64,000 bases of DNA from Companilactobacillus ginsenosidimutans (GTDB lineage: Bacteria; Bacillota; Bacilli; Lactobacillales; Lactobacillaceae), in contig NZ_CP012034.1 in assembly GCF_001050475.1 (NCBI RefSeq), positions 186,001 through 250,000 on the forward strand, written 5' to 3'. The notes under the pieces were generated by a model. That model saw only the letters and a list, made by a program, of their open reading frames with translations. It had not been told where the DNA came from and did no database searches. Shown here piece by piece: positions 44,592 through 58,983 of this stretch (positions are counted from its first letter, which is position 1; each line of letters begins with the position of its first letter). A program made the translations under genes and the position numbers.

Positions 44592-45728
44592 TTACCCCAA
44601 ATTTTCCGTTAATACATTAAGTGCTTTTTCTTCTTGTTGTAATTTTGCTTTTTGAAGTAAGTGAGAATAGGTGTTAAGCGTGATTGCTATATTCTTGTGT
44701 CCTAATCTTTGTGATACATAAGACACATCAACACCGTGTGAAATCAAAATTGAAGCATGTGTGTGCCTTAATCCATGAAAAGTAATGATATTGTCAGCAT
44801 TAACATCAGGACTGCTTAGCTTGCCTCTAAGAGCTTTATTAGCTGCGTTATCTGAAATTATTTTGTGATTACTATTTAGGAATACTAAATTACGCTCATC
44901 TCGATATCCTTGTTTAATGAAAAGCTCCTGCTGTTGCTTTTTTAATTTTTTAAGTATAGAAATCAATTCTGTGGATATTTTAATTTCTCGCTCTGAGGTT
45001 TCTGTTTTTGTTTTTTTAAATGTTTGAGTTTGATCGTAGTTGAAGCCATGCTCAATGAATACCGTTTGCTTACGAAAGTGAACATTGTCCCAGGTCAATC
45101 CAGATACTTCACCAATACGACAACCAGTTAGCAGCGCAAATATGATTTCGTAATTGACAATTGCATGCATGTTTAAATTTTTCATGCAATTTTCTTTTAA
45201 TCGTTTGGCTTCATCTTCGTTGATGTATTTTGCATCAGGTTTTTTACTTTTAATCTGTGAACTTATACTAACATTGTACGTAAAGTCACTGTATATTATT
45301 CGCTCTTCTACGGCGTCCTTTACCATTGCACGAATTATACTATTAAGTTTTGATACGCTTTCGCGAACATGATCCTTTCCATACTCGTTAAGCATGGTTT
45401 GATAATTCATTTTTGAAATATCTTTTAGTTTTGTTTCATGAAATGTCTTATTGATTAATTTAGGTATTTGACTATAAATATAATAACTGTGGGGTGTTAT
45501 ATGATCTTTCTTGTAGATCTTGATCCAGTGCCAAGCATAATCGGAAAAAGTAACATTTTCTTTTGATGTTATACCAGATTGTAACCCTTTAAGTTCAATT
45601 TCCTCGCCTGCTTTTTGGGCTTCTTTTTTTGTACCGAATCCACTTTTTGATGTTGAATGCTTTTTACCATTCTCATCCCGATACCAAACCCGATAAGACC
45701 ATTTTGCTTTTCGTTTATATAGTTGCAT
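44592..45728 (-). CDS. int: Prophage tyrosine integrase
   Basis: This 378-residue site-specific recombinase has an AP2-like arm-binding domain at the N terminus (KWSYRVWYRDENGKKHS), a SAM-like core-binding domain, and a catalytic domain. The catalytic residues are Arg in LTGCRIGEVSGLTW, His-x-x-Arg in FHGLRHTHAS, His/Trp-position LGHKNIAITL and the nucleophile Tyr in NTYSHLL. The start is ATG 45728 with TAGGAGGTG upstream. It lies at the left edge of the prophage and points outward, as usual for lactobacillus temperate siphoviruses. Confidence 0.95.
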   Translation of the reverse strand: MQLYKRKAKWSYRVWYRDENGKKHSTSKSGFGTKKEAQKAGEEIELKGLQSGITSKENVTFSDYAWHWIKIYKKDHITPHSYYIYSQIPKLINKTFHETKLKDISKMNYQTMLNEYGKDHVRESVSKLNSIIRAMVKDAVEERIIYSDFTYNVSISSQIKSKKPDAKYINEDEAKRLKENCMKNLNMHAIVNYEIIFALLTGCRIGEVSGLTWDNVHFRKQTVFIEHGFNYDQTQTFKKTKTETSEREIKISTELISILKKLKKQQQELFIKQGYRDERNLVFLNSNHKIISDNAANKALRGKLSSPDVNADNIITFHGLRHTHASILISHGVDVSYVSQRLGHKNIAITLNTYSHLLQKAKLQQEEKALNVLTENLG

Positions 45729-45798
45729 AATCACACCTCCTAATTTTGGTAAAAATAAATAAGCCTACGGTGAGACTTGGATTCACTTTTGTAATTAA

Positions 45799-47020: not shown

Positions 47021-47419
47021 CTAATTCATTACCATTTTCTTCTTTACTATATATTCATATCTTAGAGGAATACAGAATTGCTGTAGAAACATAATATAGC
47101 TATTGAAGTGGATATCATAATCTTTACAATATTGTAGTAGTAAATCTATGGCTACTTTATTAGCAGCACTTTCAGCATTAATTTTCCCCACACCAGACTT
47201 GTCATACATATAGCAAGAATCACCATTAAGCATATGACCAATCTCATGAGCTACCACCATTGGTAGTTCCTCTTGCTTGTACCAATTCGTATTAATAAAC
47301 ATCATGTTACGTTCTGGTATAGCTAAGGAAGGCCAATCAGAATCTATTCCATTAAGTAATTCGAATCCTATGTGATTATCTAGTGCGTAATTCAGTAAGT
47401 AAGTTGTAACATCACTCAT
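47021..47419 (-). CDS. ImmA/IrrE-family metallopeptidase
   Basis: The 132-residue protein has the zinc motif HEIGH at residues 58-62 (MVVAHEIGHMLNGDS) and a later helix with NAESAANKVAIDLLL that supplies the third ligand. ImmA proteins cut phage-type repressors and cause induction. It lies four bases downstream of the CI-like repressor gene, its likely target. Confidence 0.9.
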   Translation of the reverse strand: MSDVTTYLLNYALDNHIGFELLNGIDSDWPSLAIPERNMMFINTNWYKQEELPMVVAHEIGHMLNGDSCYMYDKSGVGKINAESAANKVAIDLLLQYCKDYDIHFNSYIMFLQQFCIPLRYEYIVKKKMVMN

Positions 47420-47422
47420 ATA

Positions 47423-47758
47423 TTATTTTCCCCCATCTAAGATACGTCTAATCATTTCTAATTCCTCCGGTGGTATTTCTCTACCACCATAGCTCATGAT
47501 AGTGTAGTCATCTTGCATAGCATCTTTAATATCTACTTTTTTAGATTTAGCGTTAATATCCGGATCATCCGTTTTACCCAATAGGTAGTCTACAGATACG
47601 TGTAAAACATTAGCAACCTTAGATAGGCTTTCAGTACTAGGCGTTTTAGTTTTCCAATGATATATGGAATTTGTGCCTAAGCCAGCTTTGTCATTTAGTT
47701 TTGTTAGGGAATACCCCTGTTCTTTTGAAACTTTTTTAATTCGTTCAAACGTTGTCAT
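47423..47758 (-). CDS. CI-like prophage repressor (XRE family)
   Basis: The 111-residue protein has an HTH domain at residues 4-58. The recognition region is LTKLNDKAGLGTNSIYHWKT, followed by LSKVANVLHVSVDYLLGKTDD. A short C-terminal part follows and no peptidase domain is present, so control is expected through the ImmA protease next door. The start is ATG 47758 with ACGGAG upstream. Three related 18-bp operators lie in front of it. It should hold the prophage silent by binding these sites. Confidence 0.88.
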   Translation of the reverse strand: MTTFERIKKVSKEQGYSLTKLNDKAGLGTNSIYHWKTKTPSTESLSKVANVLHVSVDYLLGKTDDPDINAKSKKVDIKDAMQDDYTIMSYGGREIPPEELEMIRRILDGGK

Positions 47759-47789
47759 AACAATGTTCTCCGTAAGTTTGACGAATTTA

Positions 47790-47968
47790 ATTAGCACAAA
47801 TGCGTAAATACACTTGTAAAATTAGCATTTGTGCGCAATAATTAATTCATCAAGTAATTGAGCAACAAAAACAGACAACCACCGATACAATACTTTGGCG
47901 AGAATTGCGGTAGTAGTAGGTCTTTCATTGCTTATTTAGTATGTCTTCATATTAGCACCTGTGCTAAT
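47790..47968. promoter_or_regulatory. Lysis-lysogeny switch with three 18-bp operators
   Basis: Three similar dyads lie between the leftward repressor gene and the rightward early genes: ATTAGCACAAATGCGTAA at 47790-47807, ATTAGCATTTGTGCGCAA at 47821-47838, and the best one, ATTAGCACCTGTGCTAAT, at 47951-47968. The common form is ATTAGCAC-NN-GTGCTAAT. They are the probable binding sites of the CI-like and Cro-like proteins. Confidence 0.82.
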
Positions 47969-48015
47969 TAAGGTCAACAACTTGATGAACAAATAACAAA
48001 GAGGAGGTGAAAGAT

Positions 48016-48195
48016 ATGAATGATGAAGAATTTACTTTAGAAAGTTCCATATATGGAAGAGCATCAATGGAAATTGCTTTACAAAATGGAAACGAATTTA
48101 TGGATCTAATAAAAAAAGCTCAGCAAGATTCTGCTGAACTTCAAAAAGATTTAGAAAGACTACAACATCTGAATCCTATTTTTAAAACTAAATAA
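48016..48195 (+). CDS. Small early phage protein
   Basis: The 59-residue acidic, helical protein (MNDEEFTLESSIYGRASMEI, then KKAQQDSAELQKDLERLQHL) has no recognised domain and may form a coiled coil. It has a very strong AGGAGGTG site. It is the first gene on the rightward side of the switch, where Cro often sits, but no HTH is seen in it. It overlaps the convergent gene at 48188 by eight bases. Confidence 0.6.
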   Translation: MNDEEFTLESSIYGRASMEIALQNGNEFMDLIKKAQQDSAELQKDLERLQHLNPIFKTK

Positions 48196-48628
48196 TTCCA
48201 ACCGGACGCATAGTGCCGAGATAATCATAAAACTTGAAAACGGTTTTAGGCATATCAAGGAATTCAATATTTGTCACAAAAGGATCGATTGAAGGGTCGT
48301 CTAATGTTTTTACCAAATTGTTTAACTTCTCAAAGACAACTGGATAATTCGCGGAAACATCATTAAAACCAAACGGATCAAAACTTTCCTTAAAGGACCT
48401 ATTCAGTTCTGGAAAGTTACTGCTGTTAATATTTTTAATCCAATCTGCAACAAAAAGTTTTCCTTTAGTTTCATTCACTGCTTTTGAGTTTTCTCGATTC
48501 TCAAAGCCTTCTGAACAAAAGACAATTTTTCTCTGATCGAATTCTATATCGGATTTGGAATTTTTCTGAATCCATGAAAGACCATATATAAAAATCTGAG
48601 ACTGTTTCTCAGTTAATATCTTATCCAT
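48188..48628 (-). CDS. Reverse-oriented prophage cargo gene, unknown function
   Basis: The 146-residue soluble protein has no signal or membrane segment. It begins MDKILTEKQSQIFIYGLSWI and ends FKFYDYLGTMRPVGII. No family is recognised. It is transcribed against its neighbours and lies head to head with an HTH gene at 48692, with a 63-bp divergent promoter region between them. The same arrangement recurs at 49894/50350 with a different cargo. The AGAGGTGAAAT ribosome site before its ATG is nearly the same as that of the second cargo gene. It may be a lysogenic-conversion or defence gene expressed from the prophage. Confidence 0.6.
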   Translation of the reverse strand: MDKILTEKQSQIFIYGLSWIQKNSKSDIEFDQRKIVFCSEGFENRENSKAVNETKGKLFVADWIKNINSSNFPELNRSFKESFDPFGFNDVSANYPVVFEKLNNLVKTLDDPSIDPFVTNIEFLDMPKTVFKFYDYLGTMRPVGII

Positions 48629-48691
48629 ATTATTTCACCTCTAATATTTTGGGATAACTAAAGTATAACAACAGAAAGGAGATGTTTTTTT

Positions 48692-48895
48692 ATGCCAGAA
48701 GAACAATTCGCAAAGGTAGCATATGACATTGAACGATCAATCAAAGTTGAATTATTGAATCGAGATATGACTCAAAAAGAATTAGCCGAACTAATTCATG
48801 CTAATCCACAACAATTGAATAGAGCTATTAAAGGCGACATGACACCCAAGTCACGTGAGTTACGTGAGCAAATTGAAAAAGTCCTCGGTATATAG
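48692..48895 (+). CDS. Cro-like HTH protein, copy 1
   Basis: The 67-residue protein is a single XRE-type HTH (MTQKELAELIHANPQQLNRA, recognition helix PQQLNRAIKG). Residues 37-58 are identical to the second copy at 50350, and about 48 of 67 positions match overall. It is divergent from the cargo gene at 48188 and upstream of the antirepressor gene. It may act as Cro at the switch, or control the divergent promoter beside it. Confidence 0.82.
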   Translation: MPEEQFAKVAYDIERSIKVELLNRDMTQKELAELIHANPQQLNRAIKGDMTPKSRELREQIEKVLGI

Positions 48896-48928
48896 GCAGT
48901 ACGAATATAAAAAAAGGAGATGAATGAA

Positions 48929-49660
48929 ATGAACAACTTAGTAATTATGAAAGATCAGCAAGCAGTGACTAGCAGTTTACAAGTTGCGGAAACGTTTGAT
49001 AAAAGCCACAAGCATGTATTAAAGGCGATCGACAACTTAAAAGAGGGGGTGGCCGAAAATTGGGCAGACCTATTTTATGAAGATACATATATTCATCCTC
49101 AAAATAGACAACCATACCGCGTAATTTACATGAGCCGAGATGGTTTTACATTGCTAGCAATGGGATTCACAGGCAAGAAAGCTCTTAAATTCAAAATGCG
49201 ATATATTGAAGCTTTTAACAAGATGGAGGATCAAATAAAAACTGGCGGTTTTAAAGTTCCGTCAACAATGGCCGAAGCTTTACGGTTAGCAGCCGACCAA
49301 CAAGAACAGCTTGAACTAATGAAACCCAAAGCGATATTTGCAGATTCGGTAGCAACATCACATACCACTATCTTAGTTGGTGATCTTGCCAAAATCATCA
49401 AAGGAAATGGCGTTGATACAGGTGCAAGACGTTTATTCCAATGGATGAGAGATAACGGGTACTTAATCAAGCGTAAAGGCGCAGATTATAATTCTCCAAC
49501 TCAAAAATCGATGGAAATGGGATTGTTCAAGATCAAGGAATCGAGCCACGTTAACGGTGATGGGGTAACTGTCGTTACTAAAACACCTAAGGTTACCGGT
49601 AAAGGACAACAATACTTCGTAAATAAATTTCTTGCAGATCAGCAGTTAAAAATCTTATAG
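48929..49660 (+). CDS. Phage antirepressor, Rha plus KilAC domains
   Basis: The 243-residue protein has a Rha-type N-terminal domain at about residues 1-105 (VAETFDKSHKHVLKAIDNLK, then YRVIYMSRDGFTLLAMGFTG and KALKFKMRYIEAFNKME). A KilAC/ANT-type domain follows at residues 120-243 (LVGDLAKIIKGNGVDTGARR, WMRDNGYLIKRKGADYNSPT). Such proteins interfere with the repressor or with host control after infection. The start is ATG 48929, nine bases after AAGGAG; an ATG at 48920 abuts that site. Confidence 0.9.
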   Translation: MNNLVIMKDQQAVTSSLQVAETFDKSHKHVLKAIDNLKEGVAENWADLFYEDTYIHPQNRQPYRVIYMSRDGFTLLAMGFTGKKALKFKMRYIEAFNKMEDQIKTGGFKVPSTMAEALRLAADQQEQLELMKPKAIFADSVATSHTTILVGDLAKIIKGNGVDTGARRLFQWMRDNGYLIKRKGADYNSPTQKSMEMGLFKIKESSHVNGDGVTVVTKTPKVTGKGQQYFVNKFLADQQLKIL

Positions 49661-49703
49661 ACGTTTGATGAACAAATTAATGGATGGAGCAGGTGACCTA
49701 TCA

Positions 49704-49934
49704 GTGAAAAGATACGATTTCATTTACTTTTATAAAAATTTTTTCAACCAATGGATACCGCTGAGCGTCGGTCATACTAACGACTTGTCTTTGGTTTTAT
49801 GGAAGAAGAACAACGTAAAAGAAGACCTACAACGAGCGGGATGTAAGCCTTCAAAAAAAGTATTCATATATATAGACGGTCGGGTGTTTCTAGTTAAGGA
49901 TTACCCATTTGATTCAAAATCATCTCGGCAATAA
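49704..49934 (+). CDS. Small early phage protein
   Basis: The product is 76 residues if started at GTG 49704, which has AGGTGA eight bases before it. It contains RYDFIYFYKNFFNQWIPLSV and ends with KVFIYIDGRVFLVKDYPF. No family is recognised. Its end overlaps the convergent cargo gene at 49894 by 41 bp, an unusually large overlap that may mark an insertion junction. Confidence 0.5.
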   Translation: MKRYDFIYFYKNFFNQWIPLSVGHTNDLSLVLWKKNNVKEDLQRAGCKPSKKVFIYIDGRVFLVKDYPFDSKSSRQ

Positions 49935-50286
49935 CTTTTGATCCTATGTTTTCAATCAAAGAAATAGAAACAGACGCGAAATCTTTGGTGATGGATTTAG
50001 TTTTACTCCATACCTTATTATCACGAATTGTGTCTAAAAATTTATGACCATTCCAAGTAATCATGCCAGTACTAAATGAATAAATGTCACCGTTCACCCA
50101 TTGAATAGATGACTTTAAGTAATTGGTTTCGTCTAACTTAGCAAGAACATATTTAATTGTATCCTTCTCGTAGTTGGATAATTCACTTGCTTCTAGAAAT
50201 TCGTCTAGGAACAAGAATTTTCCAAAAACAGCTTTATCTTCAATATAAAGCATAACGTCACGAACACAATCCTGGTTTAAACGCAT
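49894..50286 (-). CDS. DUF2513-like protein, second reverse-oriented cargo gene
   Basis: The 130-residue protein begins MRLNQDCVRDVMLYIEDKAV, the typical start of DUF2513 phage proteins. It continues with a winged-helix-like region (LSNYEKDTIKYVLAKLDETN, then FSTGMITWNGHKFLDTIRD) and an amphipathic C-terminal helix. The function is unknown. It lies head to head with the HTH gene at 50350, repeating the layout at 48188/48692. It has the same type of ribosome site, CGAGGTGAAAT. It may be expressed in the lysogen. Confidence 0.75.
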   Translation of the reverse strand: MRLNQDCVRDVMLYIEDKAVFGKFLFLDEFLEASELSNYEKDTIKYVLAKLDETNYLKSSIQWVNGDIYSFSTGMITWNGHKFLDTIRDNKVWSKTKSITKDFASVSISLIENIGSKVIAEMILNQMGNP

Positions 50287-50349
50287 TATAATTTCACCTC
50301 GAATATATATGGATTGATTAAATTATATCAATAGAAAGGAGTTGATCGT

Positions 50350-50553
50350 ATGCCAGAAGAAAAAATTGCAGAAGTTGCGTATGAATTAGAAAGTTCAATC
50401 AAGATTGCACTTATTAAAAATCATATTACACAACGAGAACTTGCAGAACAAATTAATGCTAATCCTCAACAACTCAATAGAGCAATCAAAGGTGACATGA
50501 CACCTAAATCTAGAGAATTACGAAAGCAAATTGAAAAAATTCTTGGAATGTAG
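50350..50553 (+). CDS. Cro-like HTH protein, copy 2
   Basis: The 67-residue paralog of the product at 48692 (about 72% identical) has an identical block over residues 37-58. The differences cluster in the first 36 residues, including the scaffold helices before the recognition helix. The strong AAAGGAG site and the divergent spacing to the cargo gene are also shared. The two copies could bind the same DNA and regulate both divergent promoters. Confidence 0.82.
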   Translation: MPEEKIAEVAYELESSIKIALIKNHITQRELAEQINANPQQLNRAIKGDMTPKSRELRKQIEKILGM

Positions 50554-50564
50554 GAGGTATGAAC

Positions 50565-50906
50565 ATGCAAAAAATAACGGCAACTGTAGTAATGGAAATA
50601 CCAGAAGATAAAGTGATCATCAGTAAAGCTGATTTCGAAGAATATCAAGCACTCAAAGATGACGATTACTGGTGGACTCCAAAAGATTTAAAGGACCATT
50701 ACCACCACGATATCAATTGGTTCAAAGAGAAAGTTTTGTTTGTTCCTAGATATAAAAAAGAGCTTTCAACTGAATTCGGAGGCTGTGTTCATTATTCATC
50801 GAACGATCCTGTGGACGGTGAGAAATACAACGGTCGTTATTGGAGTTTTGAACCTGGTAGATTTAGAAAATTCATGAAGGAACACTTTGCTGAAATAAAT
50901 CAATAG
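50565..50906 (+). CDS. DUF771 family phage protein
   Basis: The 113-residue protein contains ISKADFEEYQALKDDDYWWT, an excisionase-like winged helix region, then PKDLKDHYHHDINWFKEKVL and YNGRYWSFEPGRFRKFMKEH. This is the DUF771 pattern seen in early regions of Gram-positive phages. It is a likely DNA-binding protein; a role in excision is possible. The start is ATG 50565 after AGGAGGT. Confidence 0.8.
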   Translation: MQKITATVVMEIPEDKVIISKADFEEYQALKDDDYWWTPKDLKDHYHHDINWFKEKVLFVPRYKKELSTEFGGCVHYSSNDPVDGEKYNGRYWSFEPGRFRKFMKEHFAEINQ

Positions 50907-50918
50907 GAGGACAAAGTA

Positions 50919-51044
50919 ATGATTTCTATACCAATAATCGTGTGGTTACCAGTTTTTACTGGAGTATTGACTGGTCTGATCACGTACTTATTTACTAAAT
51001 ACAAAACGTGGGAAAACATTAAGAAACATATTTTTGGATTCTAG
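50919..51044 (+). CDS. 41-residue single-pass membrane peptide
   Basis: A short frame follows TAGGAGG with ATG at 50919. The product has a hydrophobic segment (IPIIVWLPVFTGVLTGLITY) and a basic C-terminal tail. It lies 12 bp after the DUF771 gene and 11 bp before the next gene, both with good ribosome sites, so it is probably real. The function is unknown. Confidence 0.6.
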   Translation: MISIPIIVWLPVFTGVLTGLITYLFTKYKTWENIKKHIFGF

Positions 51045-58234: not shown

Positions 58235-58304
58235 CAGAAGTAATTTTATATATTTAATAACTATCGTTGTACTTGGTGCAATTATTGGCTATTTATGTAC
58301 TTAG
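58224..58304 (+). CDS. 26-residue hydrophobic peptide
   Basis: A frame begins at ATG 58224, inside the end of the VRR-NUC gene, after GAGGAGTTGGTGGGG. The product has one membrane segment (FIYLITIVVLGAIIGYL). Its start sequence is copied almost exactly at 58764-58780 before the next rightward gene, so it may be a by-product of an insertion. It overlaps the convergent gene by four bases. Confidence 0.4.
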   Translation: MGINRSNFIYLITIVVLGAIIGYLCT

Positions 58305-58708
58305 AATAAAGGGCGAACTAACCAGCCGATTATAATACCGATGATAGTAGAAATGATGCTGTTGATTATAGGATGAAGAACCATTTGCCTTAATGTCTTT
58401 ATTGCAAGATATTTTCTTTCTTCGGCAATTTGTTGACCTTCTAATGTCAATATTATGTGGTGCTTTTCGCTTGAGATGTTAGTAGTTTTATTATTTTTAT
58501 CGTCATCAACTTTACCGACCTCATACATTGGTGTTCCATCATCAAATTCAATATAACCGTCATTTTTCATATCTTTTAATATCGAATTTAACTGGTCAAT
58601 GTTAAGTGTTTTAAATTTATTTAATACTTTGATTGAAGAGACTGATTTCTCAGGTTGAAGATATACGTATGACAATATTCTTTTAACGTAAAATTTTGAG
58701 TTTTCCAT
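58301..58708 (-). CDS. Reverse-oriented cargo gene: winged-helix-like protein with C-terminal membrane anchor
   Basis: The 135-residue protein starts at ATG 58708 with CAGAGG upstream. Residues about 8-55 (VKRILSYVYLQPEKSVSSIK, then LNSILKDMKNDGYIEFDDGT) look like a winged-helix domain. A linker leads to HHIILTLEGQQIAEERKYL and a membrane helix at the C terminus (INSIISTIIGIIIGWLVRPL). The plan, winged helix plus LTLEGQQ or ITWNGHKF strand and amphipathic tail, resembles the DUF2513-like cargo protein. It is the third gene in the prophage early region to run against its neighbours. It is a possible exclusion or conversion gene. Confidence 0.6.
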   Translation of the reverse strand: MENSKFYVKRILSYVYLQPEKSVSSIKVLNKFKTLNIDQLNSILKDMKNDGYIEFDDGTPMYEVGKVDDDKNNKTTNISSEKHHIILTLEGQQIAEERKYLAIKTLRQMVLHPIINSIISTIIGIIIGWLVRPLF

Positions 58709-58776
58709 TTTTACCTCTGATAAGTTTTTAGACTTATTATACATGACACAAAAAATAAAAAGAGAGTTGGTGGGAT

Positions 58777-58983
58777 ATGGTTTCAGTGAATGATAAACAA
58801 GTCTACAAAAACTATATGCAATACATGTTTGAATGCCATGGCTGTTCAATTGAGAGCACGATTGTGTGGATGAGCAAACATTACGGAGAGACACCACAAA
58901 TATTTAAAGCTGCCAAAAGAGAACTAACGGCAGAACAACGTAACGAAATTATACGGGAAATTTTAGGGGGTAGCGAATGTTAA
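58777..58983 (+). CDS. Small phage protein
   Basis: The 68-residue helical protein (VNDKQVYKNYMQYMFECHGC, then LTAEQRNEIIREILGG) has no recognised domain. It starts within a near-copy of the sequence at 58211. It overlaps the methylase-like gene by seven bases. Confidence 0.6.
   Translation: MVSVNDKQVYKNYMQYMFECHGCSIESTIVWMSKHYGETPQIFKAAKRELTAEQRNEIIREILGGSEC

Follow-up and report, generated by a model that had tools for sequence, protein, structure and literature searches.

The window analysed here is the whole 64,000-nucleotide stretch of contig NZ_CP012034.1 from Companilactobacillus ginsenosidimutans, which has a genome of 2.59 Mb. The region of interest is the early part of a prophage, with an integrase gene and a CI-type repressor gene followed by rightward early genes (Table 1). 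Two leftward genes (to be referred to as cargo 1 and cargo 2) are located between these rightward genes, the arrangement of an opposite-strand gene inside an operon that is known as a noncontiguous operon. Each of them lies head to head with a 67-residue helix-turn-helix (HTH) gene, across a divergent gap of 63 bp. The order of the genes is CI, a 59-residue gene, cargo 1 (reversed), HTH 1, an antirepressor, a phrog_845-type gene, cargo 2 (reversed), HTH 2 and a DUF771 gene. The positions of the cargo and HTH genes and the length of both gaps had been given in an earlier, sequence-only reading, and they are confirmed here. The gene calls are from a simple caller of our own rather than a published one.

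Table 1. Features of the prophage early region, in window coordinates (bp, base pairs; aa, amino acids)
Feature	Position	Strand	Remarks
Integrase	44592-45734		prophage marker
CI-type repressor gene, 111 aa	47423..47758	(-)	HTH_3 27.6 bits, cut-off 23; phrog_8 transcriptional regulator
Small 59-aa gene	48016..48195	(+)	convergent with cargo 1, 8-bp overlap
Cargo 1 terminator-like hairpin, leftward	48115..48142	(-)	inside the 59-aa gene
Cargo 1, 146 aa	48188..48628	(-)	open reading frame (ORF) call
Divergent element 1	48629..48691		cargo Shine-Dalgarno complement(48632-48641); leftward TGTTATACT complement(48662-48670); HTH Shine-Dalgarno 48674-48681
HTH 1, 67 aa	48692..48895	(+)	HTH_3 23.6 bits, cut-off 23; phrog_1468 transcriptional repressor
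Antirepressor, Phage_pRha and KilAC	48920..49660	(+)	flank common to many compared loci
Small 76-aa phrog_845-type gene	49704..49934	(+)	convergent with cargo 2, 41-bp overlap
Cargo 2, DUF2513, 130 aa	49894..50286	(-)	DUF2513 (PF10711) match
Divergent element 2	50287..50349		cargo Shine-Dalgarno complement(50291-50300); leftward TGATATAAT complement(50322-50330); HTH Shine-Dalgarno 50334-50341
HTH 2, 67 aa	50350..50553	(+)	duplicate of HTH 1

The gap and the HTH gene together are a true DNA duplication, beyond chance. Gap 1 with HTH 1 and gap 2 with HTH 2 have 75% DNA identity over 292 columns (E value of 2e-50), and the duplicated stretch extends from the start codon of the cargo gene to 20 bp past the stop codon of the HTH gene. 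The two HTH proteins are 72% identical, and residues 37–58 are the same in both, as noted earlier; these residues are also invariant in each of the 12 relatives that were aligned. The two cargo proteins are unrelated to each other (mutual best E value of 8.0), which is again in agreement with the earlier reading. Cargo 1 has no Pfam match at an E value of 1, and distant relatives of it are found in loci L167, L168 and L092. Cargo 2 is a DUF2513 protein, with a score of 86.9 bits against the curated cut-off of 29.6, and its predicted structure is a winged helix (pLDDT of 94.9). An anti-phage or host-modifying role had been suggested for the cargos in the earlier reading; a search of the defence library gave no convincing match for either of them.

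Each gap contains a leftward extended −10 box and two back-to-back ribosome-binding sites, one for the leftward cargo gene and the other for the rightward HTH gene. A near-identical site had been described at the start of both gaps. The exact sequence GAGGTGAAAT is indeed present in both, and its position gives it the role of the Shine-Dalgarno site of the cargo gene.

The −10 boxes are predicted promoters of the cargo genes and are enriched over shuffled sequences. Among 16 distinct gaps between a cargo gene and an HTH gene of this family, 9 have a perfect leftward TGnTATAAT and none has a rightward one (maximum of 2 in 500 dinucleotide shuffles). With at least 7 of 8 matches to the box, the numbers are 13 leftward and 0 rightward (maximum of 5 in 500 dinucleotide shuffles). 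One of 55 upstream stretches with no cargo has a perfect box, and this is L080, with a 30-residue rightward ORF as the only gene between CI and HTH. In 63 distinct gaps of embedded reverse genes from the fetched phage regions, compared with mononucleotide shuffles, a perfect box is found 14 times leftward and 0 times rightward (shuffle mean of 0.23, maximum of 1); at a looser −10 threshold, 57 of the 63 are positive leftward and 16 rightward, with a shuffle mean of 34.6. Of 79 distinct embedded genes, 22 have a terminator-like hairpin downstream in the leftward direction and 2 have one on the opposite strand, compared to 0 of 137 control pieces. Both the 63-gap and the hairpin surveys took either strand in turn as the lytic one, and some of their rows are not true early-operon cases. 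As no rightward box of this kind is present in the gaps, the HTH gene is most likely expressed by read-through from near CI across the cargo gene.

The sequence-only reading had proposed that the HTH gene plus the divergent promoter is the platform on which cargo genes are exchanged. Exchange around a conserved divergent promoter is well supported (see below), but the HTH gene does not hold its place as a needed half of the platform, and the constant part is the gap of about 60 bp rather than the gene. A 61-base query from the gap has 21 matches in 14 of the 36 genomes of the genus. Ten are located beside an intact HTH gene of this family, two beside an HTH remnant and eight elsewhere; the remaining match, L240, lies in an unrelated region and is due to chance. 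The eight copies away from HTH, of which seven were viewed (G024:C39 is the eighth), are 79–98% identical over 38–62 bases, and they argue against the HTH gene being required. Gap 1 of the window is absent from the 21 matches, and its kinship to gap 2 comes from their direct alignment. The element faces a DUF771-like gene in L242 and L239, an 86-residue gene in L238, a 69-residue gene in L243 and a 64-residue gene in L237. Prophage G034 has three leftward genes, each with its own copy of the element, which face a 30-residue ORF, an HTH gene and an 86-residue gene, respectively. Moreover, a unit of a 76-residue small gene, a 66-residue cargo and the gap faces HTH in L079 and an 86-residue gene in L231. 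DUF2513 points in the same direction, as the gene that it faces belongs to this HTH family in just 3 of the 28 Lactobacillaceae loci and in 2 of the 30 distinct viral ones, with the window's own copy or its twin counted. The Lactobacillaceae survey began with 30 loci, two of which gave no central gene, and the viral loci are the best 80 of 381, minus near-identical proteins.

A survey of the HTH family provides a likely identity for the gene. All 12 loci matched by the HTH protein in a search of the genome collection are from Companilactobacillus. When a profile built from 12 relatives was run against the genus, 18 of 36 genomes had a match at 1e-3; in the family, 71 of 397 genomes had one at 1e-6. 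Ten weak places were left out (G014, G347, G075, G358, G406, G143, G295, G337, G087 and the second place in G119). The 80 fetched regions together with the window gave 83 sites, two of them the window's own. In 56 of the 83, the HTH gene is divergent from a CI-like leftward gene and first in the rightward operon, as expected for Cro, with its start 149–411 bp (median of 258) from that gene and no cargo called in between. A leftward gene starts 20–130 bp away in 20 sites, and seven belong to neither class. From the position of these homologues and the HTH_3 score above the cut-off, HTH 1 is predicted to be the Cro of this prophage, and HTH 2 its duplicate. In the window itself, the 59-residue gene and cargo 1 separate CI from HTH 1. 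With 56 of 83 sites beside CI, the cassette is therefore placed between CI and cro, or further in at a duplicated copy of cro.

The HTH protein may instead repress the facing cargo promoter directly, along the lines of the silencing proposed in the sequence-only reading, so that the HTH gene and the divergent promoter would be a platform for a self-regulated pair. The gap and the HTH gene were duplicated as a single unit, the invariant residues 37–58 likely include the recognition helix, and the −10 box lies just before the ribosome-binding site of HTH, where a repressor could act. All three observations are in accord with direct repression. However, the element is also conserved where no such HTH gene adjoins, the gene in the Cro position beside CI is a different protein in L242 and L239, and DUF2513 mostly faces other genes. 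In addition, a shared operator was not found, as the core of the element does not stand out from shuffles in 8 of the 9 CI-cro regions that have no cargo; the ninth, L080, is itself a copy of the platform. We consider direct repression by HTH unlikely.

The exchange of cargo genes is seen from several comparisons. The 23 cargo proteins that face this HTH family (with L010, L214 and L215 added) fall into 14 clusters (blastp, E value of 0.01). In pairs among six Companilactobacillus loci (L079, L082, L083, L086, L091 and L010), the gap and HTH are 83–92% identical with different cargo genes upstream, although the cargos of L082 and L083 belong to one family; the identity begins 55–98 bp before HTH. 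The clearest case is L214 and L215. They are 95.6% identical across nearly all of the phrog_845-type gene, after which the sequences are unrelated; one locus encodes DUF2513 and the other a 113-residue protein, and their gaps differ as well. Identity then resumes at 95% from 19 bp before HTH onward. The window can also be compared with L085, another prophage of the same genome (G000:C1, about 863500-871500), which is 99.2% identical to it over 2913 bp, including cassette 1. The two diverge over cargo 2, HTH 2 and the DUF771 gene, where L085 lacks cargo 2 and holds an HTH remnant with two stops, and 92% identity resumes near 50928. Finally, L084 has HTH 1 beside CI and no cargo 1, while cargo 2 and HTH 2 are present.

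Such mosaicism could also be debris, with the reverse genes being passengers of recombination at a hotspot that have no coordinated regulation or benefit. The element does join many unrelated genes on both sides, and L080 carries it with nothing more than the 30-residue ORF between CI and HTH. Against this, promoter, ribosome-binding and terminator signals recur, the cargo frames are open in relatives of several genera, and phages of Staphylococcus and Lactococcus share this anatomy. An explanation by debris is improbable.

Several further observations concern the cargo genes. The window prophage and L085, which reside in one genome with the same cassette 1, could recombine or show cross-immunity. 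A third leftward gene is present in the rightward region of the window (58301-58708(-), 135 residues), with a winged helix and a C-terminal membrane segment as judged by eye. A gap of 68 bp, with TATAAT at complement(58736-58741), separates it from the 68-residue gene that it faces, which starts at 58777 and does not belong to this HTH family. A recurrent cargo type, as judged by eye, has a small winged-helix-like domain followed by a C-terminal hydrophobic segment, and is seen in L109, L215, L217, L079 (at +1107 to +1463 from HTH) and the 58301-58708 gene. The L109 and L215 cargos cluster together, and that of L109 matches phrog_12206 and phrog_4278, two families with no annotated function.

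The 3′ ends of the cargo genes have partners of their own. Among the 30 viral DUF2513 loci, a convergent phrog_845-type gene is located at the 3′ end in 14 and another small family in 2, and the convergent pair of DUF2513 and phrog_845 spans Lactobacillaceae to Staphylococcus phages. Conversely, phrog_845-type genes are found at 23 places in 21 of 369 genomes, a count that is not dereplicated (L207, L209 and L210 are near-identical). The convergent gene is DUF2513 at 14 of these places and another leftward gene at 5; at 3 places there is none, and at the remaining one a leftward gene comes only after one more small gene. For cargo 1, the relatives in prophages (the window, L085, L092 and L168) keep a convergent partner of 59–60 residues; the one in L092 is almost identical to that of the window, and L168 has a 60-residue relative. 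The gene that faces them varies, being HTH, the antirepressor (L092) or a 101-residue gene that is Tad2-like by eye (L168).

These associations suggest another possibility, that the small convergent genes are the cognate antidotes of the cargos, with each convergent pair as the functional unit and HTH as a bystander. A precedent is found in excerpts of PMC11087260, where ith is a small gene that overlaps the 3′ end of tha. The frequent pairing of DUF2513 with a phrog_845-type gene, and the constancy of the cargo 1 partner while the facing gene changes, are consistent with such a role. On the other hand, phrog_845-type genes are without DUF2513 at 9 of the 23 places, and also as 80alpha gp09 and phi13_08; 80alpha Ith has no match to the phrog_845 profile; and the cargo 1 relative in L167 has no partner of 59–60 residues and is located near a pair that resembles a toxin-antitoxin system by eye. 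Cognate antidotes are conceivable, though on the unlikely side.

Some loci in these surveys have features of their own. A small rightward gene at L027:4384-4602 (the L083 locus) is Tad2-like (Thoeris anti-defence; PF11195, E value of 5.5e-11), and the small rightward genes that are convergent with or face the cargo in L082, L168 and L159 appear Tad2-like by eye. In Lactobacillus phage vB_Lga_AB1 (L156), DUF2513 is one of the genes of the CI-ImmA operon and points in the lysogenic direction, and a small gene converges on its 3′ end; by gene layout, this is a natural case of DUF2513 being co-transcribed with the repressor. In Listeria phage LP-P111 (L160), it is reversed between the terminase and portal genes, with TGATATAAT in the cargo direction, and because of this location DUF2513 is not tied to the early region. 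The gaps of L174, L176, L185 and L135 are of a different type and have a conserved inverted repeat, TTACTRGC-N5-TGCCTAGTAA, just after the −10 box, with 0 to 3 mismatches. It precedes DUF2513 in three of these loci and another cargo in the fourth, and could be an operator.

Overall, the early region of this Companilactobacillus prophage probably contains two accessory cassettes of the noncontiguous-operon type, with cargo genes that are on in the lysogen and turned down upon induction. The duplication, the exchange, the promoter and terminator signals and the position of Cro are read from the DNA letters, and we infer the timing, the collision of polymerases and the route of exchange. Each cargo gene would be a leftward unit within the rightward early operon, and the compact divergent element would supply its extended −10 promoter and ribosome-binding site; the rightward gene that comes next would also take its ribosome-binding site from the element. 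In the lysogen, CI would hold rightward transcription off, leaving the cargo promoter free. Upon induction, rightward early transcription would cross the cargo gene on the opposite strand and produce Cro, and the cargo would be turned down by polymerase collision, perhaps with help from Cro. The cassettes may be exchanged by recombination, with one crossover in the small convergent gene and the other in the element or at the next ribosome-binding site.

Several observations weigh against the two cassettes being regulated in this manner. Many of the 16 cargo-HTH gaps are homologous, and are thus not independent. Seven of the 55 cargo-less upstream stretches reach 7 of 8 matches to the box, above all 500 shuffles (maximum of 6). 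The proposed leftward −10 boxes have no good −35, a sigma-70-like scan of 47400-50700 gives 8 sites compared to 13.1 in shuffles, showing no excess, and no terminator-like hairpin was found for cargo 2. Furthermore, a third embedded gene of 80alpha, orf72, shows no negative-sense transcript in the excerpted data of PMC11087260.

In Lactobacillaceae, one reused promoter element links many unlike genes. A broader proposal, which is rather doubtful, is that the element of about 60 bp is a general docking joint, at which temperate Firmicutes phages load and swap lysogen-expressed immune genes together with small convergent antidote genes. If so, DUF2513 and phrog_845 would be a widespread, undescribed prophage immunity pair, with the winged-helix protein as sensor or effector. 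The reading of the window as two noncontiguous-operon cassettes, if right, has consequences of its own. A simple rule would follow (a reverse gene in an early operon, TGnTATAAT just past the neighbor's ribosome-binding site, and a convergent small gene) by which candidate lysogen-expressed accessory genes could be picked out in prophages with no more than the sequence, and many of these belong to families whose function has not been described. The opposing-transcription switch of prophage immunity in S. aureus and E. coli would also extend to Lactobacillaceae, and DUF2513 and its phrog_845 neighbor would become directly testable.

The cassettes can be compared with several known systems. In lambdoid phages, morons are autonomously transcribed inserts, with their own promoter and terminator and absent from close relatives, and boundary (linker) sequences are short conserved joints between exchangeable genes. 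Cargo 1 has a −10 box and a hairpin and is absent from L084; cargo 2 has a −10 box and is absent from L085, with no hairpin found. Unlike the lambdoid joints, the joint here is itself a predicted promoter with two back-to-back ribosome-binding sites.

In phi80, transcription of the immune gene taiEcA opposes that of the late operon, which is under Q and includes the counter-defence gene atiEcA; the authors term this arrangement a noncontiguous operon and tested the functions, as the excerpts of PMC11364771 describe. The likeness is in the layout, with a gene transcribed against a lytic operon. Here, however, the operon is an early one, and the promoter element is duplicated.

In S. aureus phage 80alpha, the cI promoter drives tha during lysogeny; after induction, the protein encoded by ith, a small overlapping gene with its own promoter, inhibits it (excerpts of PMC11087260). 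The shared features are a small convergent gene that overlaps the 3′ end of a leftward lysogenic gene and, as the proposed logic, a life-cycle switch by opposing transcription. In contrast, the cargo genes here have their own predicted promoters, and the small genes are part of the early operon. An identity with Tha (a HEPN defence protein) and Ith was rejected, as cargo 2 is DUF2513 with a modelled winged helix and cargo 1 has no Pfam match.

Similar layouts are those of reverse genes in the early regions of other phages. The 80alpha embedded genes orf11 and orf19 show a clear transcription switch after induction by direct RNA-seq (excerpts of PMC11087260). The gp11 gene is reversed and comes after the antirepressor, the phrog_845-type gp09 and gp10. 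It shares a 26-bp overlap with gp10, and on its other side a 58-bp gap, with TATAAT in the cargo direction, lies between it and gp12, which it faces. The gp19 gene faces the next gene across 64 bp, also with TATAAT in the cargo direction, and has TGCTATAAT. PVL, 3A and phi13 have the same plan with other cargos. In phi13, the gene next to ant, which is probably phi13_06, lies within the lytic region and is transcribed in the lysogenic direction (excerpts of PMC9694928). The published transcripts of orf11, orf19 and this phi13 gene count in favor of the reading proposed here for the two cassettes. Compared to the cassettes here, the reverse genes of 80alpha and phi13 encode other cargo proteins and have no duplicated HTH platform. 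The anatomy is therefore of a known kind, and the present analysis adds to it a duplicated and reused promoter element, a record of exchange and a spread in Lactobacillaceae.

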